From the NCBI RefSeq assembly GCF_900199635.1, contig NZ_LT962687.1:1473501-1537500 (forward strand): 64,000 bases of DNA. The letters run 5' to 3'. Position numbers and translations under genes: made by a program. Below, one piece after another: positions 22,686 through 63,930 of the stretch (position 1 is its first letter; each line of letters starts with the position of its first letter). The stretch is from Anaerotruncus massiliensis (ex Togo et al. 2026) (GTDB lineage Bacteria; Bacillota; Clostridia; Oscillospirales; Ruminococcaceae). The notes beneath the pieces were generated by a model. The model ran no database searches, was not told the origin of the DNA, and saw nothing but the letters and a program-made list of their open reading frames with translations.

Positions 22686-22856
22686 ACCGAGCCGGTAGAG
22701 GCGCGTCTTTCATCAGTAGCCGGAAAGAGACTGCCAGAGTCGTTGAAAAGCCGTGTGAAAGGGACAGACGCCGAAGGGGACGCCTGGCGGCCGTTCCCTG
22801 GGCGCATCGCCGAAAGGCATGCGACTGTCATCATTGAACTGTGATGGAGAGCTATG
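22686..22856 (+). promoter_or_regulatory. Lysine riboswitch (L box) aptamer
   Basis: The segment carries the conserved lysine-aptamer blocks in order: GGTAGAGGCGCG, AGTAGCCGGAAAGAG, GACGCCGAAGGGG, CTGGGCGCAT, GCCGAAAGGCATGCGACTGTC and TGTGATGGAGAGCTA. It sits between a consensus promoter and an intrinsic terminator and precedes asd-dapA-dapB, the expected regulon. Lysine binding should favour the terminator and switch the operon off. The 75 bases between aptamer and terminator hold a GC-rich stem (around 22888-22905) and form the expression platform. Confidence 0.92.
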
Positions 22857-22930
22857 GCGGGGCGGTTGGACGCGGCGGATTCCGCGCGTTCGCACGCGCC
22901 GATAACTTCTCTATTATAGTGCAATTCATG

Positions 22931-48597: not shown

Positions 48598-48632
48598 AAA
48601 AAGGAAGCCGCCCGCGGGCGGCTTCCTTTTTT
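48598..48632. terminator. Bidirectional terminator between the NSS transporter and sigG
   Basis: A nearly perfect palindrome, AAAAGGAAGCCGCCC / GGGCGGCTTCCTTTT, with T-runs on both strands. It follows the transporter stop on the plus strand and touches the sigG stop on the minus strand. Confidence 0.9.
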
Positions 48633-49401
48633 AGATGTGTTTTTTGATCCAGTCGAGCGCGCCCTTTTCCAGCCGGGAGACCTGCGCCTGCGAGATGCCG
48701 ATCTCCTTGGCGACCTCCATCTGGGTCTTGCCGACGAAAAAGCGCAGCGTGAGGATCCTCTTCTCCCGATCGCCGAGGCTCTTCATCGCCTCCTTGATCG
48801 CGATCTCGTCCATCCAGTCGCTCTCGCCGCCCTTGTCCCCCACCTGGTCCATCACGTAGATCGTGTCCCCGCCGTCCGAATAGACCGGCTCGTAGAGGGA
48901 CATCGGCTCGACGATCGCCTCGAGCGCGAGCACGACGTCCTCCTTTTTGGCGCCCATTTCCGCCGCGATCTCGTCGACGGTCGGCTCCTTGGAGTTGCGG
49001 TTGATGAGCGTCTCCTTCGCCTGCATCGCCTTATAGGCGAGATCGCGCAGCGAACGGCTTACCCGCACCGAATTGTTGTCGCGCAGGTGGCGGCGGATTT
49101 CCCCGATGATCATCGGCACCCCGTAGGTAGAAAAGCGCACGTTCTGGTTGGGATCGAAGTTGTCGATCGCCTTGATCAGTCCGATGCATCCCACCTGGAA
49201 GAGGTCGTCCAGATTTTCTCCGCGGTTGGTGAACTTCTGCACGACCGACAGCACCAGCCGCAGGTTGCCGTTGATCATCTCCTGGCGCGCCTGCTGGTCC
49301 CCCTGCCGGATGCGCTTCAACAGCTCAATCTTTTCCTTTTCCTTTAAAACGGTCAGCTTGGCCGTATTGATCCCACAGATTTCCACCTTGTTGTAATACA
49401 C
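48631..49401 (-). CDS. sigG: Forespore-specific sigma factor SigG
   Basis: SigG directs late forespore transcription. The roughly 256-residue sigma-70-family protein has the SigG N-terminus NKVEICGINTAKLTVL (contact region for anti-sigma factors), region 2 (NLRLVLSVVQKFTNRG ... DLFQVGCIGLIKAIDNFD ... FSTYGVPMIIGEIRR), region 3 and region 4 (LTLRFFVGKTQMEVAKEIGISQAQVSRLEK). GTG 49401 gives the normal length with a GAGCGGGG site; longer frames add unrelated residues. It lies downstream of spoIIGA-sigE. Confidence 0.95.
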   Translation of the reverse strand: MYYNKVEICGINTAKLTVLKEKEKIELLKRIRQGDQQARQEMINGNLRLVLSVVQKFTNRGENLDDLFQVGCIGLIKAIDNFDPNQNVRFSTYGVPMIIGEIRRHLRDNNSVRVSRSLRDLAYKAMQAKETLINRNSKEPTVDEIAAEMGAKKEDVVLALEAIVEPMSLYEPVYSDGGDTIYVMDQVGDKGGESDWMDEIAIKEAMKSLGDREKRILTLRFFVGKTQMEVAKEIGISQAQVSRLEKGALDWIKKHI

Positions 49402-49518
49402 GTTTCGCACCCCGCTCACCCGAATCTTTCTAAATTCAGTATGAGCAGGGGAATTTGCAAACATACGCTTTCCAAAAATTGCTTGACCGGCGCGGCAGCA
49501 TTTTCCGGGACGCGCGGG

Positions 49519-49553
49519 AAGGCCCCGGCACGGAGATTCCGTGCCGGGGCCTT
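49519..49553 (-). terminator. Intrinsic terminator after sigE
   Basis: A long GC stem, AAGGCCCCGGCACGGA paired with its complement around a short loop, lies 20 bases after the sigE stop. It separates sigE from sigG, which in this order needs its own forespore promoter. The rest of the 171-base gap holds no gene. Confidence 0.8.
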
Positions 49554-49572
49554 CCTGTAAAGCGGGGTGCCG

Positions 49573-50298
49573 TTACAGGGTCTTTTCCAGCTCTTTCTTG
49601 AGCTTTTTGATGATGCGCTTTTCCAGCCGCGAGATATACGACTGGGAGATGCCGATGATGTCCGCGACCTCCTTCTGGGTCTTCTCCTCGCTGCCGAGCA
49701 GGCCGAACCGCAGCTTCATGATGAGCTGTTCGCGCTCGTCGAGATGGCTGATCGCGCCGAGCAGGAGGTTCTTTTCCGCCTCGTCCTCGATGGGACGGTT
49801 GATGCTGTCCGGATCGGTACCCAGAATATCCGAAAGAAGCAGCTCGTTGCCGTCCCAGTCGATGTTGAGCGGCTCGTCGATCGAGATTTCGTTCCTGTGC
49901 GACTGGTTTTTGCGCAGGTGCATGAGGATCTCGTTTTCGATGCAGCGGGAGGCGTAGGTGGCCAGCTTGATGTTCTTCTGCGGGCAGAAGGTGTTCACCG
50001 CCTTGATCAGCCCGATCGTCCCGATCGAGATGAGGTCCTCCACGCAGATGCCGGTCGACTCGAATTTTTTGGCGATGTAGACGACCAGCCGCAGATTATG
50101 TACCGTCAATGTCTCCTTCGCGCCCTCGTCGTTCTCCTCGAGCTTGCGGAAGACGATCTTTTCCTCCTCCTTGGAGAGCGGAGCGGGCAGCGTCTCCGGG
50201 CCGTTGATGTAGTAGGCCCGCCGCCGCCACAGCCGCCGGAAGATTTCGCGCAGCCGCCCGAACAGCCCGGCCGCCCGCGCCCGTAATGTCGTGATCAA
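49573..50298 (-). CDS. sigE: Mother-cell sigma factor SigE (pro-sigma-E)
   Basis: SigE drives early mother-cell gene expression. The 241-residue protein starts with a basic, amphipathic pro-sequence (residues 1-27) and the conserved cleavage neighbourhood [18 protein letters not shown], which SpoIIGA processes. Region 2 ([52 protein letters not shown]) and region 4 ([33 protein letters not shown]) follow. The TTG start has an AAGGGG site. Encoded directly after its protease. Confidence 0.96.
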
Positions 50299-51835: not shown

Positions 51836-52573
51836 CTACTGATAACAGTCCGGGTCGGGCGCCGGCACCGCCTCGAGCAGCGCCCGTGTATAGGGGTGGC
51901 GCGGACGCCCGCAGACCTCCGCGGTCTCCCCCAGCTCGACGAGCTTTCCCGCCCTCATGACGCCGATGCGCCCGCAGACCCGCCGCACCGCGGCAAGGTC
52001 GTGGGAGATCAGCAGGACGGACATGCCCCGCTCCCGCCGCAGGCGCAGGAAGAGGTTCAAAATCTGCGCGCGCACCGACATGTCGAGCGAGGCGGCGGGT
52101 TCGTCGGCGAGCAGGAGATCGGGGTCGGGCGCGAGCGCCCGCGCCACCGCGATCCGCTGCTGCTGCCCGCCCGAAAGGCCGCCCGGAAAGCAGCCGGCGA
52201 GCTCTTCACCGAGGCCGACCAGTCCGAGCAGTTCGCGCGCCCTTTCCCTGCGTTCGGCGCGCCCGCCCCGGCGCAGGATGTCGAGCGGCTCGCAGATCAG
52301 CTCCTCGGCCGTCATGCGCGGATTGAGGGAGCCGGACGCGTCCTGGAAGATCATCTGGAAGCTCCCCGCGAGGCGGATTTCGCCGCCCTCCGGACGGCAG
52401 AGCCCGGCGACGCAGCGGGCGACGGTCGATTTGCCCGAGCCGCTCTCCCCGACGAGCCCGAAAAGCTCCCCGCGCCCGATCGAAAAGGACACGCCGTCGA
52501 CCGCGCGGATCTCCGCGCCGCCCGACAAAAAGCGTTTTTGCAGCCCGCATACCGAAAGCAGCGGCTCATCCAC
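51836..52573 (-). CDS. ABC transporter ATP-binding protein, NikE/OppF-type
   Basis: One of two ATPases of the five-gene transporter. The 245-residue protein has Walker A GESGSGKSTVARC, the ABC signature LSGGQQQRIAVARAL and Walker B LLLADEPAASLD, then the H-loop (LLISHDLAAVRR). It is short and lacks the C-terminal oligopeptide extension common in OppF, as in NikE. GTG start, overlapping the preceding ATPase gene by eight bases. Confidence 0.88.
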   Translation of the reverse strand: MDEPLLSVCGLQKRFLSGGAEIRAVDGVSFSIGRGELFGLVGESGSGKSTVARCVAGLCRPEGGEIRLAGSFQMIFQDASGSLNPRMTAEELICEPLDILRRGGRAERRERARELLGLVGLGEELAGCFPGGLSGGQQQRIAVARALAPDPDLLLADEPAASLDMSVRAQILNLFLRLRRERGMSVLLISHDLAAVRRVCGRIGVMRAGKLVELGETAEVCGRPRHPYTRALLEAVPAPDPDCYQ

Positions 52574-53588
52574 CGGCGCTCACCCGCCTTTCCCCAATCC
52601 CGGCGGGCGGGTCGACGCGCGGCGCGTCGGGATGCAGCAGCCAGGTCGCGGCATAGTGGGTATCGGAAACGCGGAAGAGGGGCGGCTCCTCCCGCCAGTC
52701 GACACCCAGCGCCCAGGGATTCCGCGGGGCAAACGCGTCGCCTGCGGGTGGATGGAGCAGGTCGGGAGGCGCGCCTGGAATGCTGAAGAGCTCCCCCGTT
52801 CCCTCCGGGGAGGGAACGGACGCGAGCAGCCCCCAGGTGTAGGGATGGCGCGGGTCGTGGTAGATTTCCTCCGCGGTGCCGATCTCGACGAGCCTGCCCG
52901 CGTACATGACGGCGACGCGCCCGGCGATCCGGGCCGCCGCGCCGAGGTCGTGGGTGATAAAGAGGATCGCCGTGCCCGTCTGGTGCTGGATGTCCCGCAG
53001 CAGGCCGAGCATCTGCGCCTGCACGGTCGCGTCGAGCGCGGTGGTCGGCTCGTCGGCGACAAGCAGCTTCGGGCCGCAGGCAAGCGCCGACGCGAGCACG
53101 CAGCGCTGGAGCATCCCGCCGGAAAACTGGTGCGGATAGTCGCCGTACCGCCGCGCGGGTTCGGGGATGCCGGTCAGGGCCATCAGCTCGAGCGCGCGCG
53201 CCTTCGCCCCGGCACGGGAGATCCCTCCGTGCGCGCGGGCGGCGCGGGCGATCTGGCTTCCCACCGGCAGGGAGGGGTTCAGCGCGGACATCGGGTTTTG
53301 CAGCACGAGCGCGATCTCCTTCCCGCGGATCCCCTCGAGCTCCCGCTCGCCCATCGCGGCGAGGTCCCGCCCCGCGTAGAGGATGCTCCCGCCCGCGACC
53401 CGCCCCCGGTGGGGCAGCAGGCCGAGCAGGCTCTTGCAGAGCACCGACTTGCCGCAGCCGCTCTCCCCAACGACCGCGAGCGTCTCCCCCGCGCAAATGG
53501 AGAAGGAGACGCCGCGCACCGCCCGGATGACGCCGCGCGGGGAGTCAAACGCGATCTTCAGATCCCGCACCTCAAGCAGCGCGTCCAT
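52566..53588 (-). CDS. ABC transporter ATP-binding protein, NikD/DppD-type
   Basis: The second ATPase, about 340 residues. Walker A GESGCGKSVLCKSL, signature FSGGMLQRCVLASAL, Walker B LLVADEPTTALD, and the H-loop FITHDLGAA are present, followed by the C-terminal oligo/dipeptide-type tail ending in EEPPLFRVSDTHYAATWLLHP. The start at 53588 has GGGGG seven bases upstream; ATG 53594 is too close to that site. It lies 13 bases after the solute-binding protein gene. Confidence 0.88.
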   Translation of the reverse strand: MDALLEVRDLKIAFDSPRGVIRAVRGVSFSICAGETLAVVGESGCGKSVLCKSLLGLLPHRGRVAGGSILYAGRDLAAMGERELEGIRGKEIALVLQNPMSALNPSLPVGSQIARAARAHGGISRAGAKARALELMALTGIPEPARRYGDYPHQFSGGMLQRCVLASALACGPKLLVADEPTTALDATVQAQMLGLLRDIQHQTGTAILFITHDLGAAARIAGRVAVMYAGRLVEIGTAEEIYHDPRHPYTWGLLASVPSPEGTGELFSIPGAPPDLLHPPAGDAFAPRNPWALGVDWREEPPLFRVSDTHYAATWLLHPDAPRVDPPAGIGERRVSAGG

Positions 53589-53601
53589 GGTCATTCCCCC
53601 T

Positions 53602-55146
53602 TCAGGCGAGCGTCCAGTCTTTGACGTTCCAGAAGATGCCCACCCCGTGGTGGCCGAGGACCGTGTCGGGCGCGATCCCCTGCACCCGGTCCTTCGCGAC
53701 GTAGACGGCGTCGGCATAGGCCAGGAAGGTGTAGGGCAAATCGTCGGTCAGCGCCTCCTGGAACGCCTGATAGTATTTCATCCGGTCGGCGGAGACGTCG
53801 GTGCCGCGCGCTTTCCCGAGCAGGTCGTCCACACGGGGGTTGGAGTAGTTCCCGTAGTTGGCCGCCTGCCCAGTGCCGAACACCTTGTAGGTGTGGTCGT
53901 CGGGGTCGAAGGGGCTTCCCCAGCCGATCAGATAGGCGGCCTGCCCCGCCCAGTCGATCTCGGAATCGATCGAAACGGTCACGTCCGCGCCCGCCTCGGA
54001 GAACTGCTGCGCGCAGATGTTCGCCATGTCGACGCGCACCGGGTCCCCCTCGGGGCAGTGGATCGTAAAGGCCAGCCGGTCGCCGTCCTTCTGGTAGACG
54101 CCGTCGGAGCCCTGCCGCCAGCCCGCCGCTTCGAGCATCGCACGGGTCTTGACCGGATCGTACTGGAACTTTTCAACGGCGGGATTGTTGTAGGGGCCGG
54201 ACTGGAGGGGCGAGTAGGCGGGCCGGCCCTTGCCGAGCAGGACGCTGTCGACGATCGCCTGCCGGTCGACCGCGTAGCTCAGCGCGTTGGGCAGCTCGCG
54301 GTATTTGGCGAAGAGTGGATGGTTGAAATTATAGAGGACCCCCCGGTAGTCGGAGGTCTTCATGTCGTAGACGGTAAAGCCCTCCGCGTCCCCAAACGAC
54401 CGCGCGTCCTGCGGGGACACCTGCGCGAGGTCGAGCTCCCCCGACCGAAGCTGCATGGCGCGCGCCTTCTCGTCGGGCACGATTTTGAAGATAATCCGCC
54501 CGATCTTCGGCGTGCCCGCGTAGTAATCGGGGTTGCGCTCGAGCACGATGCTCTGTCCCGCGTCCCACGCGACGAGCTTGTAGGGGCCGGTCCCGACCGG
54601 CGCCTGGTTGAAGGGGTCGGTGACGAGGTCCTTCCCCTCGAGCAGGTGCTTCGGGAGGATTCCGATCGCGAGGTAATCGAGCATCGCGGCGTTGGGTGAG
54701 GAAAGCGTGATCCTCACGGTGTGGTCGTCGGGCGTCTCGATCGCCGCGATGTCCTCATAGTTGGAGGCGATCTCCGAGAGGTTCTCGGGGGCGAGGATCG
54801 CTTCCAGCGTGAACTTTACGTCTGCGGCGGTGAACGGTTCGCCGTCGTGCCATTTGACGCCCTTCCGGAGCGTAAAGGTGTAGGTGAGGCTGTCGCGGTC
54901 GTACTCCCACTTTTCCGCCAGCCCGGGGATGATCTTGTTTTCCCCGTCGCGGGCGGTCAGCCCCGAAAAGAGCAGCAGGTTCACTTCCCCGTGCTCATAG
55001 AGCGCGGGGTTGATGCTCGTGTAGTCCCCGCTGCCATAGACGAGGGTCGTTTCTTCCGGTTCCCCGCCCGCCGCGCCGCAGCCCGGCAGGAGGAAGAGGA
55101 CCGCCGCCAGCAGGACGGCGAGGAGGCGCGTTACAGATTGCTGCAT
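53602..55146 (-). CDS. Solute-binding lipoprotein of an Opp/Nik-type ABC transporter
   Basis: A 514-residue SBP_bac_5-family protein with a lipoprotein signal peptide (lipobox LPGC, lipidated Cys23). Family blocks: LRKGVKWHDGEPFTAADVKFT, GTGPYKL, and RQAIVDSVLLGKGRPA. The family includes peptide and nickel (NikA) binders. Nickel is favoured here because the operon is divergent from larEBC, and because the C-terminus holds a His pair (LGHHGVGIFWNVKDW) that could bind metal; this is inference. It overlaps the oppC-type permease gene by 16 bases. Confidence 0.85.
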   Translation of the reverse strand: MQQSVTRLLAVLLAAVLFLLPGCGAAGGEPEETTLVYGSGDYTSINPALYEHGEVNLLLFSGLTARDGENKIIPGLAEKWEYDRDSLTYTFTLRKGVKWHDGEPFTAADVKFTLEAILAPENLSEIASNYEDIAAIETPDDHTVRITLSSPNAAMLDYLAIGILPKHLLEGKDLVTDPFNQAPVGTGPYKLVAWDAGQSIVLERNPDYYAGTPKIGRIIFKIVPDEKARAMQLRSGELDLAQVSPQDARSFGDAEGFTVYDMKTSDYRGVLYNFNHPLFAKYRELPNALSYAVDRQAIVDSVLLGKGRPAYSPLQSGPYNNPAVEKFQYDPVKTRAMLEAAGWRQGSDGVYQKDGDRLAFTIHCPEGDPVRVDMANICAQQFSEAGADVTVSIDSEIDWAGQAAYLIGWGSPFDPDDHTYKVFGTGQAANYGNYSNPRVDDLLGKARGTDVSADRMKYYQAFQEALTDDLPYTFLAYADAVYVAKDRVQGIAPDTVLGHHGVGIFWNVKDWTLA

Positions 55147-56021
55147 GTTTTGTTACCCTCCCTACGGATGTAATTTCCAATGTCGGTGATGGAGACGAGC
55201 GTCGTGATCAGAAAGACGCCCGGTATGACGATGACCCACCAGCTCCCGGACAGGAGCGCCCGGTCGGCCTGGGAGAGCAGGCTCCCCCACGAGACGACGC
55301 CGACCGGCAGGCCGAGCCCCAGGAAGCTGAGGGTCGATTCGGTTGCGATCGCCGCGCTGATGTTGGTTACGACCATGAACATGAGGGGCGACAGGAGATT
55401 CGGCAGCAGGTGCCGCCGCAGGATGTGCCAGAAGCCCGCCTTCATCGTGCGCGCCGCGAGGACGTAGGCGCTGTGCCGCAGCCTGCGCACCTCTCCGCGC
55501 ACGACCTGCGCCATCTGCATCCAGCCGGTCACGCCGACGACCAGCGCGATGCCCGCCGGGCTTTGGCGGCCGATGACCGCCTGCAAAAAGATGACGAGCA
55601 GGATGGACGGCACCGAGAGGGAAAGCTCGATGAAACGCATCATCGCGGCGTCCGCCTTAGCGGGCGCGACTCCGCTGACGCTGCCGTAGAGCAGGGCGAT
55701 CGCGGTTGATATCGCGGCCGCGAGGCACCCCACGAGGAGGGACACCCGCCCCCCGTGCCAGATCATGGAAAAGAGGTCGCGCCCCATCGGATCGGTGCCG
55801 AACCAGAATTCCGGCGAGGGCGGCGCGCCGATGTGCGATAGGTCGAGGTATCCGGGGTCGCGCGGCGCGAGCGCGCCCGCGAGGGCGCACCCCAGCAGGA
55901 TCAGCCCGAGCAGGCAGAATGCGGCCCACGGCCGTTTGGCGCGCGGCTTCGGTGGCGGCAGCGGCGGTGCCGCGCCGGGGGGCGCGGGCGCGAAGGAGAA
56001 GTCGCCGGGCAGAAAATTCAT
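55131..56021 (-). CDS. ABC transporter permease, NikC/OppC-type
   Basis: The 296-residue permease has a long Pro-rich cytoplasmic N-terminus, one helix (AAFCLLGLILLGCALAGALA), the family block FGTDPMGRDLFSMIWHGGRVSL, and five more helices. The EAA-type loop that contacts the ATPase is VLAARTMKAGFWHILRRHLLPN. The start overlaps the upstream permease stop (ATGA). Confidence 0.9.
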   Translation of the reverse strand: MNFLPGDFSFAPAPPGAAPPLPPPKPRAKRPWAAFCLLGLILLGCALAGALAPRDPGYLDLSHIGAPPSPEFWFGTDPMGRDLFSMIWHGGRVSLLVGCLAAAISTAIALLYGSVSGVAPAKADAAMMRFIELSLSVPSILLVIFLQAVIGRQSPAGIALVVGVTGWMQMAQVVRGEVRRLRHSAYVLAARTMKAGFWHILRRHLLPNLLSPLMFMVVTNISAAIATESTLSFLGLGLPVGVVSWGSLLSQADRALLSGSWWVIVIPGVFLITTLVSITDIGNYIRREGNKTCSNL

Positions 56022-56995
56022 CGCGCGCCCCTCCCCCTCATGCGCGGGTCGAGCGCCCCGCCCAGCGCCCGCGCCGCCATGCCCGCGAGCATGACGACCG
56101 CGCCGGTGATGAGGCAGAGGACGAGCAGCATGTTGTAGTCGTGATATTTCGCGCTTTCAAAACAGAGTGTGCCCAGCCCCGGATAGGAAAACACCTTTTC
56201 CACGATGTAGGTGCCGCCCAGAATATGCGGGATCGACACCGCCATCAGCCCGAAATAGGAGGGCAGGACGTTGCGCAGGCACTGGGTGAAAAGGATTTTG
56301 CGGCGGCTGAGCCCCTCCGCACGGCAGAGCAGGACATAGTCCTGCCGCACCTCGTCGAGCAGGCGGTTGCGGATGAGGTAGGCGTAGTACCAGAGGTGCC
56401 CGAGCACCAGCACGGCGAGCGGCAGGACGAGATGGCGCAGGCGTCCCAAAAGGTCGTACGGCCTGCCGATGTCGTAGGCCCCGCTCGAGGGCAGCAGGCC
56501 CAGCTCGACGCTGAACAGCAGGATCAGCAGAAGCGCCAGCCAGAAGGAAGGGATGCAGCCGGTCACGGTGCCGATCCGCCGGACGGCGCGGTCGGCCGGC
56601 GAATCCTCCCGCAGCGCGCAGAAGGCCCCCAGCAGCAGCGCCAGCCCGAAGGTCAGCAGGTAGGCGGTCACGCCGAGCAGCAGCGTGTTCCCGTAGACGC
56701 CGCCGATCACCGTCATCACGTCCCGCTTATACTGGAAGGAGACGCCGAAGTCGCCCCGGAGCGCGTTTTGAAGCCACGCGCCATACTGCACGATGATCGG
56801 TCGGTCCAGCCCGAGCCGGTCGAGCGCGTCGGCGCGCTCGGATTCGCTGAGGCGTTCCGCGCTCTCGCCGTAGTAGGAGCGCAGCGGGTCGCCGGGGGAA
56901 AGCCGCGAGAGGAAAAAGACCGCGATGGAAAGCAGAAAGAGCGCCAGCACAAATCCCAGCGCCCGCCTGACCGCGTTTTTCACCGCGCGCTTCAT
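56018..56995 (-). CDS. ABC transporter permease, NikB/OppB-type
   Basis: First gene of the transporter operon, about 325 residues. It has an N-terminal helix (GFVLALFLLSIAVFFLSRLSPGDP), five further helices, and the ATPase-contact loop RAEGLSRRKILFTQCLRNVLP. ATG 56995 has a GAGGG site and lies beyond the leader terminator hairpin; ATG 57040 would lie within the terminator's T-rich tail and lacks a site. Confidence 0.9.
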   Translation of the reverse strand: MKRAVKNAVRRALGFVLALFLLSIAVFFLSRLSPGDPLRSYYGESAERLSESERADALDRLGLDRPIIVQYGAWLQNALRGDFGVSFQYKRDVMTVIGGVYGNTLLLGVTAYLLTFGLALLLGAFCALREDSPADRAVRRIGTVTGCIPSFWLALLLILLFSVELGLLPSSGAYDIGRPYDLLGRLRHLVLPLAVLVLGHLWYYAYLIRNRLLDEVRQDYVLLCRAEGLSRRKILFTQCLRNVLPSYFGLMAVSIPHILGGTYIVEKVFSYPGLGTLCFESAKYHDYNMLLVLCLITGAVVMLAGMAARALGGALDPRMRGRGAR

Positions 56996-57041
56996 CTTTT
57001 CACCCTCCCCCGCCAAATTTGACGCAAAAGAAAAAACCATG

Positions 57042-57152
57042 AAAAATCCCCCGCGTTGCCCGCGGGAAAATCTTCATGATTTCATTCGTCAAATCGTCTA
57101 TACTGCCTGCCGTCCCTTCGTGGGCGGCGCACGCGTCCGCTTCTGCGGACCT
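57042..57152 (-). promoter_or_regulatory. Structured leader with attenuator upstream of the ABC transporter operon
   Basis: Reading the minus strand from about 57152: a stem GTCCGC/GCGGAC, a GC-rich segment with GGGACGGCAGGCAG, an AT-rich linker, and finally a terminator-like stem CCCGCG/CGCGGG followed by GATTTTT (57042-57068). It has the form of an attenuated leader. The GGCAG repeats faintly recall the NiCo riboswitch, but the required repeated blocks are missing, so I leave the sensor unassigned. Confidence 0.6.
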
Positions 57153-57157
57153 CACTA

Positions 57158-57225
57158 AGGATACCCGAATGAAACGGATTTGTCAAGCCGCCGCGATTGA
57201 CAAACCGGCCCCGTTATTGTAAACT
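57158..57225. promoter_or_regulatory. Back-to-back divergent promoters sharing an inverted repeat
   Basis: Minus-strand promoter: TTGACA (57181-57186), 17-base spacer, TATCCT (57158-57163). Plus-strand promoter: TTGACA (57197-57202), 17-base spacer, TAAACT (57220-57225). The -35 regions form a perfect inverted repeat TTTGTCAA-N10-TTGACAAA (57179-57204). A single regulator bound there could control both operons. Confidence 0.8.
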
Positions 57226-57229
57226 GGTA

Positions 57230-57307
57230 GCGCACAGGAAGTGCGCTGTCTGTGGTCAAGCCACGGAGAAAACCGCCAGAAGGCTCACGCTTCGTGAGCC
57301 TTTTTTT
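57230..57307 (+). promoter_or_regulatory. Structured leader with intrinsic terminator upstream of larE
   Basis: The transcript begins with a stem GCGCAC/GTGCGC (57230-57246), then CTGTGG/CCACGG around TCAAG (57250-57266), a linker GAGAAAACCGCCAGAA, and a strong terminator GGCTCACG/CGTGAGCC with seven T (57282-57307). Its place before a cofactor pathway suggests a riboswitch or protein-controlled attenuator. I could not match it to a named riboswitch class. Confidence 0.7.
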
Positions 57308-57327
57308 GTCGACAGGAGGTCTTTGGG

Positions 57328-58074
57328 ATGCCTCTCGAATCCTTTTTTGCCGCGCACCCGCGGGTAGCGGTCGCGTTCTCCGGCGGGGTGGATTCCGCCT
57401 ACCTGCTCTACGCCGCCAAGACGGCGGGCTGCGATGCGGCCGCCTACTTTTTGAAGACGCCCTTCCAGCCCCAGTTCGAGCTGGAGGACGCCCAAAAGCT
57501 CGCGGGCCAGCTCGGCGTGCCGCTGCACATCGTCGAATACGACGTGCTCGGAGTCCCCGGCGTCGCGGAGAACGGGCCGCTGCGCTGCTACCACTGCAAG
57601 CGCGCGCTCTTCACCCGACTGTGGGAGGCCGCGCGCGCCGACGGATTCGAGGTGCTCTGCGACGGCACCAACGCCTCGGACGACGGCGCCGACCGGCCGG
57701 GCATGAAGGCGCTCGCGGAGCTTGGGGTGCGCTCCCCCCTGCGGGAGGCGGGCCTCTCCAAGCCGGAGATCCGCCGACTTTCCCGCGAGGCGGGGCTTTT
57801 CACCCACGATAAGCCCGCCTATGCCTGTCTTGCCACCCGGGTCCCCACCGGCACGCCGATCACCCCCGGCCTGCTGGAAAAGACCGAACGCGCCGAAAAC
57901 GCCCTCTTCTCCCTCGGGTTCACCGATTTTCGGGTGCGTTTTTTTTGCGGCGCGGCGCGCATCCAGCTCCCGGAGGGGCAGCTTTCTCGCGCTCTTTTGG
58001 CGCGGCAGGCGATTTTGGACGCGCTATCCCCCGATTTTGACGCGGTGCTGCTCGATCTGCGGCCGCGCGGTTAA
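57328..58074 (+). CDS. larE: Nickel-pincer cofactor sulfur transferase LarE
   Basis: LarE sacrifices a Cys sulfur (or uses a cluster in other types) to convert the pincer precursor carboxylates to thiocarboxylates. The 248-residue PP-loop ATPase has SGGVDS at residues 18-23, the block RCYHCKRALF, DGTNASDD, and the sulfur-donor Cys in PAYACLATRVPTG (Cys167), equivalent to the sacrificial Cys of the L. plantarum enzyme. ATG has a CAGGAGG site. First gene of larE-larB-larC. Confidence 0.95.
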   Translation: MPLESFFAAHPRVAVAFSGGVDSAYLLYAAKTAGCDAAAYFLKTPFQPQFELEDAQKLAGQLGVPLHIVEYDVLGVPGVAENGPLRCYHCKRALFTRLWEAARADGFEVLCDGTNASDDGADRPGMKALAELGVRSPLREAGLSKPEIRRLSREAGLFTHDKPAYACLATRVPTGTPITPGLLEKTERAENALFSLGFTDFRVRFFCGAARIQLPEGQLSRALLARQAILDALSPDFDAVLLDLRPRG

Positions 58075-58086
58075 GGAGACGACTTG

Positions 58087-58845
58087 ATGGAACAGGACCG
58101 GATTTTACAGATTTTGCAGGAGGTCAAAGCGGGGGCGGTCACGCCCGAGCAGGCGATGCTGGACCTGAAGATGTGCCCGTTTGAGGATCTGGGCTACGCG
58201 AAGGTGGACCACCACCGCGCCCTGCGGCAGGGCGTCCCCGAAGTCATCTTCGGCAGCGGCAAGACGCCCGGACAGATCGTCGGCATCACCCGCTCGATGC
58301 TGGCGCGCGGCAGCGGCGTGCTCATCACGCGCCTCTCTCCCGAGGCGGCGGAGGCGGTCGCGGCGGAAATCGAGATCAGCTACGACCCCGTCTCCCGCAT
58401 CGCCTTCGCCGGGGAGCGTCCTGCGCCCGACACGGGGGGGCGGATCGTCGTCGCGACGGGCGGCACGAGCGACATCCCCGTCGCGGAGGAGGCCGCCGTC
58501 ACCGCCGAGTCGCTCGGCAACCCGGTGGAGCGGCTCTACGACGTGGGGGTCGCGGGGCTGCACCGGCTTCTCGCAAGGCTGGACGTGCTCATGAGCGCCC
58601 GCGTGGTGATCGCCGTCGCGGGTATGGAGGGGGCGCTCGCCAGCGTGATCGGCGGGCTGTGCGACTGCCCGGTCATCGCCGTGCCCACCAGCATCGGCTA
58701 CGGCGCGAATTTCGGCGGGCTCTCCGCCCTGCTCTCGATGCTAAATTCCTGCGCGAGCGGCGTTTCGGTCGTCAACATCGACAACGGCTTCGGCGCGGGC
58801 TATCTTGCCAGCATGATCAACCACATGGGAGGGACGAAATCATGA
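58087..58845 (+). CDS. larB: Nickel-pincer cofactor synthase LarB (NaAD carboxylase/hydrolase)
   Basis: LarB carboxylates the pyridinium ring of nicotinic acid adenine dinucleotide and releases AMP. The 252-residue protein has an N-terminal segment (LQEVKAGAVTPEQAMLDLK), then YAKVDHHRALRQGVPEVIFGSGKTP and a PurE-like C-terminal domain (VVATGGTSDIPVAEEAAVTAE, VYDVGVAGLHR-like YDVGVAGLHRLL, GMEGALASVIGGL). ATG 58087 has AAGGAG eight bases upstream. Overlaps larC by four bases. Confidence 0.95.
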   Translation: MEQDRILQILQEVKAGAVTPEQAMLDLKMCPFEDLGYAKVDHHRALRQGVPEVIFGSGKTPGQIVGITRSMLARGSGVLITRLSPEAAEAVAAEIEISYDPVSRIAFAGERPAPDTGGRIVVATGGTSDIPVAEEAAVTAESLGNPVERLYDVGVAGLHRLLARLDVLMSARVVIAVAGMEGALASVIGGLCDCPVIAVPTSIGYGANFGGLSALLSMLNSCASGVSVVNIDNGFGAGYLASMINHMGGTKS

Positions 58846-60191
58846 AGACGCTCTATCTCGAATGTCAGATGGGCGCGGCGGGCGACATGCTGATGGCCGC
58901 GCTGCTCGAGCTGCTGCCCGATCCCGCGCCCTTTCTCGCCCGGATGAACGCGCTGGGCATCCCCGGCGTGGAGATCACGGGCGAACCCATGCAGAAATGC
59001 GGCATCACCGGCACCCACGTCCGCGTCAGGGTGCACGGCGAGGAGGAGCAGAGCGAGGACGTCGGCGGCCATGCCCATCCCCACACGCAGGAGGCGCCCC
59101 ACGTCCATGAGCACCCCCATGAGCACGACCACGGAGAGGCTCCCCACCTTCATGAGCATGAGCACGGCGGGGAGGCGCCGCACACGCACGAACACGGCCA
59201 CGAACACGGAGAGGGCCACAGCCATCCGCACGGGCATCATCACTACAGCTTTTCCGATATCCGCGCGCTGATCGAAGGATTCGACCTGCCCGCCGAGGTC
59301 CGGTCGGACGCGATCGCCGTTTACCGTCTCATCGCCGAGGCGGAATCCCACGCGCACGGCGTTGCGGCCGAGGAGGTGCATTTCCACGAGGTCGGCTCGA
59401 TGGACGCGGTCGCGGACATCGTCGGCTGCTGCCTGCTCTTCCACCTGATCGGCGCGGACCGCGTCGCCGCCTCCCCCGTCCACGTCGGAAGCGGCTTCGT
59501 GCGCTGCGCGCACGGGGTTCTGCCCGTGCCCGCGCCCGCCACCGCCCACCTTTTGCGCGGCGTGCCCGCCTACGGCGGCGAGGTGCGCGGCGAGCTCTGC
59601 ACCCCGACCGGCGCGGCGCTGCTGCGGCACTTTGTTTCCTCCTTCGGCCCGATGCCCGTTATGGCGGCGGAAAAGATCGGCTACGGCATGGGCAGCAAGG
59701 AATTTGAGCGCGCCAACTGCCTGCGCGCCTTCCTCGGCGAGGAGGACGGCGGCATGGACGAAACCTGCGAGCTCCGCTGCAACCTCGACGACATGACCCC
59801 CGAGGCGGTCGGCGCGGCGGTCGACCTGCTCTTTGCTGCGGGCGCGCTCGACGTCTTCCTGACCCCCATCCAGATGAAAAAGAACCGGCCGGGCGTGATG
59901 CTCACCTGCCTTGCCCGTCCCGCGCAGAAGCAGGCGGTGGTCGAAGCCATGCTCCTGCACACCTCGACCCTCGGCGTGCGGGAGCACACCTGCCGCCGCA
60001 CGGTGCTGCGGTCCTCCCTTTCGACGGTGGACACCCCCTACGGCCCCATCTGCGTCAAGCGGAGCAGCGGCCACGGGGTCGCCAAGGAGAAGCCGGAGTA
60101 CGCCGACGTGCTCGCCGCCGCCAAGGCGCACGGCGTTCCGTTTGAAACGGTCTGGCGGCATGCCGTCGCCGCCTGCGAATCCGAAGCATGA
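58842..60191 (+). CDS. larC: Nickel insertion protein LarC, unsplit, with a His-rich segment
   Basis: LarC inserts nickel into the pincer nucleotide using CTP. The 449-residue protein begins LYLECQMGAAGDMLMAALL and contains the typical VHFHEVGSMDAVADIVGCC, NLDDMTPEAVG and KNRPGVMLTCLA blocks. It is one continuous frame, whereas the L. plantarum gene is split (larC1/larC2) and needs a frameshift. Residues 77-134 hold 24 His, with many HxH and HEH repeats, probably a nickel-binding store. The start codon overlaps the larB stop (ATGA). Confidence 0.95.
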   Translation: MKTLYLECQMGAAGDMLMAALLELLPDPAPFLARMNALGIPGVEITGEPMQKCGITGTHVRVRVHGEEEQSEDVGGHAHPHTQEAPHVHEHPHEHDHGEAPHLHEHEHGGEAPHTHEHGHEHGEGHSHPHGHHHYSFSDIRALIEGFDLPAEVRSDAIAVYRLIAEAESHAHGVAAEEVHFHEVGSMDAVADIVGCCLLFHLIGADRVAASPVHVGSGFVRCAHGVLPVPAPATAHLLRGVPAYGGEVRGELCTPTGAALLRHFVSSFGPMPVMAAEKIGYGMGSKEFERANCLRAFLGEEDGGMDETCELRCNLDDMTPEAVGAAVDLLFAAGALDVFLTPIQMKKNRPGVMLTCLARPAQKQAVVEAMLLHTSTLGVREHTCRRTVLRSSLSTVDTPYGPICVKRSSGHGVAKEKPEYADVLAAAKAHGVPFETVWRHAVAACESEA

Positions 60192-63644: not shown

Positions 63645-63930
63645 CAAAAAAACCTTCGCCTCTCCAAAAAAGAGACGAAGGTTTTGAAAAACTTCCGTGG
63701 TACCACTCTCATTGACCGCCATAGGCAGCCCGCTCGACCGCATCCAACAATGCGCTCCCCATCTAACGGCGGGGTTCCGTCCGGTTCTAATTGCAAATGG
63801 AGCTTTCGACCGGCAGCTCGGGGGCGAGTTATTCACATTCGCGGCACCGCCTCGCACCGACCGGCGGCTCTCTGCAAACGCGCGGGATGTGTTTTGTTCC
63901 CCGTCAACGCCTTTGACGTATTCATCTTGT
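63645..63930 (-). promoter_or_regulatory. T-box leader of the leucine operon (candidate Leu CUC specifier)
   Basis: On the minus strand the leader has a Stem I with the AGAGAG motif and the distal GGTGCGAGG, the specifier loop GTGAATAACTCGCC with CUC (Leu) at 63826-63828, the T-box sequence AGAGTGGTACCACGGAAG (63692-63709) and a terminator stem ACCTTCGTCTC / GAGAGGCGAAGGT with a T-run (63645-63684). Uncharged tRNA-Leu should stabilise the antiterminator and allow leuA-leuC-leuD transcription. The T-box call is strong; the specifier reading is less certain. Confidence 0.92.

Follow-up and report, generated by a model that had tools for sequence, protein, structure and literature searches.

Tandem C-(A)NGAA-G hairpins in the leaders of lar and nickel-type transport operons: a candidate antitermination element in Clostridia

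INTRODUCTION

Guanidine-II RNAs (mini-ykkC) consist of two small hairpins with tightly conserved, C-G-closed loops of the sequence ACGR. The NiCo riboswitch (RF02683) is an example of nickel-linked leader control, and CsrA prefers AGGA in an apical loop. The dual hairpins targeted by ANTAR-domain regulators (EutV, NasR, AmiR) are tandem small stem-loops; the second hairpin overlaps the terminator, the loop bases are conserved, the linker length matters, and the loops are hexaloops with A1 and G4 (PMC3369931). A leader hairpin is also needed for LoaP antitermination (dfn/mln); it has a UNCG-type loop and precedes long polyketide operons (PMC12691694). Here we compare these systems with two divergent leaders, one preceding larEBC and the other an Opp/Nik-like ABC operon, in a stretch of 64,000 nt of DNA that is called the window throughout.

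RESULTS

Divergent promoters and attenuated leaders in the window

The features of the locus are collected in Table 1. The two promoters were the best two among five promoter-like sites in 4.5 kb (shuffle mean 0.6), and both the sequence and the scan bear out the original prediction that they carry TTGACA with 17-nt spacers and stand back to back (57158-57225). Their -35 regions had been described as forming TTTGTCAA-N10-TTGACAAA; this inverted repeat is likewise present, but two adjoining -35 boxes create it unaided. Its existence is what speaks for a DNA-binding repressor acting there as the main control. However, the two boxes already explain the repeat, and in 7/9 same-genus larE leaders TTGACA and the -10 box were kept without the mirrored half (examined by eye). 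At the other two divergent lar/nik loci the repeat is absent as well, and genes lie between the promoters. The proposal of an operator at the repeat was therefore not supported, and we consider control mainly by such a repressor highly improbable.

In both transcripts a terminator-type hairpin precedes the first gene, as had been predicted; both were seen in the sequence and in the folds, and the one on the minus strand was also detected by the terminator scan. The scan returned 5 terminator-like sites against 3.4 expected in this GC-rich region, so that a terminator-like site counts for little on its own. Both leaders folded better than shuffled sequences (z -3.4 for the minus leader and -4.7 for the plus leader), and the reading of the two as attenuators of the lar and nickel-type operons was supported.

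Hairpins of the type C-(A)NGAA-G recur on both sides. With stems of at least 3 bp, five of the 24 in the window lie inside 57042-57310; with stems of at least 6 bp, 3 of the 4 in the window fall inside the leader region (Poisson P 8e-7, a descriptive value, the window having been seen before the motif was fixed). Rather than having been invented twice, a single element appears to serve both leaders. In each of them the last motif hairpin and the terminator exclude one another. The terminator fold reached -39.3 kcal/mol in the plus leader and -57.8 kcal/mol in the minus leader, versus -30.0 and -43.4 kcal/mol, respectively, with the motif hairpins enforced. The nascent plus transcript, cut ahead of the terminator 3' arm, folded both of its motif hairpins; the nascent minus transcript folded hairpins 1 and 2, not hairpin 3.

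LarC contains a long histidine-rich stretch at 59080-59260 (+). Elsewhere the window holds a lysine riboswitch at 22688-22862 (+, 92.2 bits), two adjacent sigma-70-family factor genes at 48631-50298 (-), and a T-box leader at 63668-63916 (-, 98.4 bits) upstream of what we take, from its sequence, to be a 2-isopropylmalate-synthase-like gene.

Table 1. Positions of promoters, leader structures and genes at the divergent locus (numbering of the window)
Feature	Position	Strand	Details
larEBC promoter	57197..57225	+	TTGACA (57197-57202), 17 nt, TAAACT (57220-57225)
Opp/Nik-like ABC operon promoter	57158..57186	-	TTGACA (57186-57181), 17 nt, TATCCT (57163-57158)
Inverted repeat	57179..57204		arises from the two -35 boxes
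lar leader motif hairpin 1	57230..57246	+	GCGCAC-AGGAA-GTGCGC, pentaloop
lar leader middle hairpin	57247..57269	+	not of motif type; from the fold
lar leader motif hairpin 2	57275..57284	+	GCC-AGAA-GGC, 3 bp, putative antiterminator; the terminator 5' arm begins with its 3' arm
lar leader intrinsic terminator	57282..57307	+	GGCTCAC-GCTTC-GTGAGCC-T7; from sequence and fold, not in the terminator scan
nik-side motif hairpin 1	57135..57150	-	GTCCGC-AGAA-GCGGAC, tetraloop
nik-side motif hairpin 2	57114..57124	-	CCC-ACGAA-GGG, pentaloop, 3 bp
nik-side motif hairpin 3	57068..57082	-	AAATC-ATGAA-GATTT (longer form GAAATC-ATGAA-GATTTT); overlaps the terminator 5' arm
nik-side long terminator hairpin, then T-run	57031..57078	-	arms 57078-57061 and 57055-57038; scan lists 57069-57047
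NikB/OppB-like permease, first gene of the ABC operon	56018..56995	-	start inferred; NCBIfam scores below equivalog cut-offs
Remaining ABC operon	51836..56021	-	permease C, solute-binding protein (53602-55146), two ATPases
larE	57328..58074	+	TIGR00268, 239.6 bits (cut-off 150)
larB	58087..58845	+	NF033503, 295.4 bits (cut-off 175)
larC	58842..60191	+	TIGR00299 and NF052512, above cut-off

A conserved hairpin element upstream of larE

The larE leaders of same-genus genomes contain a recurrent small hairpin that is closed by a C-G pair, has a pentaloop ANGAA or a loop such as AGAA, TGAA or AGGA, and differs in its stem between genomes. Inspected by eye, a leader with such hairpins was found in 7/9 same-genus relatives, two (L011 and L012) having none, and also in some other genera. 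The second lar hairpin of the window varies among the relatives with pairing kept, for example as ACC-AGGA-GGT in L004. When the whole intergenic region was used as a DNA query against 297 genomes of the family, only its own genome and three matches of 24-39 nt were recovered.

The element was then counted in the best 80 of 135 larE loci from other species, which vary in kinship, and the counts are uncorrected for it. Among hairpins of at least 5 bp, motif loops made up 50/506 upstream of larE, 10/4085 downstream and 0/419 on the opposite strand. An unbiased tally of all hairpins upstream of larE placed CAGGAAG (19) and CAGAAG (15) on top. To avoid circularity, pairing was assessed by anchoring on the loop sequence alone and then asking for three flanking pairs. 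CANGAAG had paired flanks in 41/57 cases upstream of larE and 2/99 downstream, and CAGAAG in 29/42 versus 7/68; CGGAAG was not enriched in the same test on these loci (2/11). Since the stems vary yet still pair while the loops stay, the element is, on this comparative sequence evidence, a conserved RNA structure. The window leaders carry the same C-(A)NGAA-G hairpins, whose stems covary, and in the orthologous leaders, where the original prediction had proposed to look for compensatory changes, a structure is kept with such changes.

At least one motif hairpin of 4 bp or more was present in 41/80 larE leaders, compared with 3/80 in the first 330 nt of larE, and at least two in 28/80 compared with 0/80 in the same controls. 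The other 39/80 loci had no such hairpin within 330 nt upstream; in four of them (L082, L086, L090 and L092) the element lies farther upstream of larE. At these four loci a conserved pair of small proteins (~137 and 105 aa) is encoded between the element and larE. The pair of L090 had no Pfam or NCBIfam match, and at L146 the pair follows the element.

The 3' arm of a motif hairpin was shared with the 5' arm of a terminator in 38/66 leaders, both window leaders included. Counted per hairpin, overlap was found for at least 42/155, against 307/3100 for random segments of the same leaders. The scripted test missed 28/66 leaders, among them L259, L082, L086 and L092, and at L259, where the script reported no overlap, inspection by eye shows the hairpin covered by the terminator arm AATCATGAAGA.

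The element precedes nickel-type transporter genes

In two genomes of other genera, G287 and G123, lar and nik are also divergent, and their nik leaders (L259 and L260) end as in the window with the hairpin AAATC-ATGAA-GATTT, which sits by eye on a terminator using the same ATGAAGA bases. Relatives of the window's solute-binding protein are encoded nearby, downstream of the element and on the same strand, in G803, G796, G793, G785 and others. The window operon is Opp/Nik-like, its best nickel and oligopeptide NCBIfam models scoring below their own cut-offs, and the transporter proteins do not reach the nickel equivalog cut-offs.

Compact dyads, in which a tetraloop hairpin comes after a pentaloop hairpin, are found in many lineages. 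A covariance model, R1, was built from 22 such dyads, 4/26 dyads with other spacing being excluded. The 22 have a spacing of 18-22 nt from C to C, having been chosen by linker length, and their pairing counts are circular because pairing had been used in choosing them. At E <= 0.1, R1 gave 53 matches in the 80 larE loci, and 48 of these lay in lar-operon leaders on the correct strand; training dyads account for 19 of the 48, and matches outside the training set include L123, L079, L072, L082, L086, L053 and L117. The five matches outside leaders were in L094, L122 and L107, with one each in L116 and L044.

A search of 391 Clostridia genomes, with 18 candidates scored per genome, yielded at least eight R1 matches in at least seven genomes. 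Five of the eight are in leaders, namely those of ECF S-components (L143 and L150, which are one leader, L144 and L145) and of a small-protein pair (L146); L147, L148 and L149 were judged to be coding DNA and set aside. The S-components found under the element at L143, L144, L145 and L283 score above the general ECF model cut-off and are weakly FolT/ThiT-like. In 29 element genomes R1 gave 12 matches besides the known leaders. Four of these are leaders, three of Nik-like operons that encode relatives of the window's solute-binding protein (L187, L189 and L191) and one of a TonB receptor (L188), and the other eight (L190 and L192-L198, with L193 at E 3.9e-4) were set aside as coding DNA. The element genomes include Clostridia, an Acidaminococcus (L092) and a Lentisphaeria genome.

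The best R1 match in the window, at 57137-57163 on the minus strand, was weak (E 0.056) and its first hairpin was poor. In the search of the window's own genome the leader site was not among the matches listed. That search gave 19 weak matches; the best, L124, is by eye coding DNA of a mobile element. R1 has no significant match to the window leaders because their spacing differs: minus hairpins 1 and 2 are ~23 nt apart in tetraloop-pentaloop order, and the plus hairpins are ~42 nt apart. The membership of the window leaders in the element would thus rest on loops, position and orthologues, not on R1.

The leaders might also be taken for ordinary unregulated terminators accompanied by chance hairpins, and the commonness of terminator-like sites in this GC-rich region lends that idea something. 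The enrichment, strand specificity and pairing are nevertheless far above the controls, and the same element precedes transporter genes, so that we attach hardly any probability to chance.

Induction by lactate through larA was considered as well. In 30 Lar_N loci (from a set in which 21/32 matches were above the cut-off) no pair of motif hairpins preceded larA, the single pair found (L224) lying inside the matched larA stretch, and lactate-type induction was rejected. The missing hairpin pair before larA would speak for a signal from nickel or a cofactor rather than for induction by the substrate.

Comparison with described RNA classes

The original prediction could assign neither leader to a riboswitch class, and a covariance-model search of Rfam 15 agreed. 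Neither leader matched above a gathering cut-off, and up to E 10 only weak matches far below the cut-offs appeared; the leaders of 11 relatives, searched up to E 0.5, likewise gave no match above a gathering cut-off. Guanidine-II RNAs share the two C-G-closed hairpins with the element and differ in the loop sequence, ACGR; they gave no cmscan match in the window region up to E 10 or in the 11 relatives up to E 0.5. The NiCo riboswitch was rejected, the best match in the window's own genome reaching 14.4 bits against a cut-off of 37 and none lying in the leader region. Some copies of the element present AGGA in the apical loop as CsrA/RsmX-type sites do, but many loops (AAGAA, ACGAA, ATGAA, AGAA, TGAA) are without GGA, and the rsmX match in the leader region was weak (18.3 bits, cut-off 56). 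The element resembles LoaP leaders in that a leader hairpin would be needed for antitermination, and its loops are not of the UNCG type found there.

ANTAR targets have the layout closest to that of the window leaders, with dual hairpins of which the second overlaps an intrinsic terminator. The closing C-G pair and the NGRR-G 3' half are also found in the eut consensus AGCAANGRRGCUY (PMC3369931), and the window genome has one match to the ANTAR domain. The leaders could accordingly be targets of ANTAR-domain response regulators. Against this, the loops of the element have 4-5 nt, NGAA or ANGAA, instead of the hexaloops with A1 and G4 of ANTAR targets, and an ANTAR domain was not found in 10/24 element genomes; completeness was stated for eight of these ten, and seven are at >=92%. 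ANTAR regulation was rejected as a general explanation on this last ground, and we judge it improbable for these leaders. On the tests done, the element falls outside the ANTAR-target family, although it would act in a similar way.

DUF3842 as a candidate partner

DUF3842 (PF12953) first surfaced as a gene neighbour of the element. It was present in 45/46 genomes searched, G789 being an element genome in which it was not found, and in 42/43 listed element genomes versus 140/393 genomes of a Clostridia sample, the list being richer in some families than the sample. In 16/43 element genomes DUF3842 lies within 2.6 kb of the element, often directly upstream, with the element separating it from lar, nik or ECF-S genes; four genomes of the same genus have it divergent from the lar leader. 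A further adjoining case, additional to the 16/43, is G004, of the same genus as the window, which has no larE match and the order DUF3842-element-ECF-S. DUF3842 is not beside the element in 27/43 genomes, that of the window included. Across 76 larE loci (four of the 80, with <700 nt upstream, were left out) the element was present in 10/11 with DUF3842 and 21/65 without it (Fisher P 3.6e-4, uncorrected for kinship).

Within 450 nt downstream of DUF3842, none of the 30 top-scoring Clostridia loci (L305-L334) had two motif hairpins and two had one, so DUF3842 also occurs without the element. In 15/30 of these loci cooT, which encodes a nickel-binding accessory protein of CO dehydrogenase, comes shortly after DUF3842, and the two genes form a recurrent unit. 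At L305 the DUF3842-cooT unit is followed by a motif hairpin that sits on a terminator, and then by a NikA-like gene. By eye, a leader with motif-like hairpins also seems to lie upstream of DUF3842 at this locus, which would allow autoregulation.

Structure prediction gave DUF3842 a Rossmann-like fold at low confidence (mean pLDDT 65), with UbiX and Rossmann-type proteins as the best Foldseek matches. This modelled fold looks nucleotide-binding and resembles nothing known for RNA binding. A sequence search of the PDB gave nothing convincing (best E 0.07), and no mention of DUF3842 was found in the literature searched. DUF3842 could equally be a nickel-linked enzyme merely travelling with these genes.

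DISCUSSION

The leaders described here typically carry 2-4 small C-G-closed hairpins with a tetraloop NGAA or a pentaloop ANGAA. We suggest that RNA polymerase would start at a housekeeping-type promoter and that the motif hairpins would form before the terminator is complete. The last of them would use bases of the terminator 5' arm, so that the terminator could not form while the hairpin is held, and upon its release the more stable terminator would win. Since these bases are shared, we infer that the held state is the ON state. A trans-acting factor would recognise the loops, which in compact copies are two loops ~20 nt apart, and would turn on expression by antitermination. Given that the genes under control serve synthesis of the nickel-pincer cofactor (larEBC) or uptake of nickel-type substrates, nickel or cofactor status is probably what is sensed. 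A protein would be a likelier factor than a small molecule acting by itself, and the best candidate is DUF3842.

The original prediction had suggested that one or both leaders may be a new nickel- or cofactor-sensing RNA. The hairpins would then form a ligand-binding RNA of two loop domains, comparable to guanidine-II RNA, in which binding of nickel, the pincer cofactor or a precursor would keep the antiterminator in place. The tight conservation of the loops and the narrow spacing of the 22 compact dyads, even though these were chosen by linker length, are compatible with it, as are a partner protein that is still a candidate and a gene range tied to one metal or cofactor. On the other hand, very small loops in variable copy number look like protein sites, an ON switch poorly suits cofactor feedback, the adjacency of DUF3842 is left unexplained, and there was no Rfam match. 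We regard such a riboswitch as rather unlikely. A protein antiterminator fits the architecture at least as well as a nickel- or cofactor-sensing RNA does, and we give about even chances that both leaders are copies of one conserved antitermination element held by a factor, with DUF3842 as the best candidate for it.

No report of the element was found in the literature searched, a search whose scope left outside most subscription papers and all preprints, and the element is apparently uncatalogued in Clostridia and some relatives. Somewhat more tentatively, and at a little under even chances, we propose that DUF3842 founds a new family of RNA-binding antiterminators that would read nickel or pincer-cofactor status on tandem (A)NGAA hairpins and would coordinate nickel-cofactor synthesis with nickel-type uptake in Clostridia as well as in an Acidaminococcus and a Lentisphaeria genome. 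The element is a concrete candidate in Clostridia for tying nickel-cofactor synthesis to transport, and its gene neighbourhood offers a first functional lead for DUF3842, a domain of unknown function.
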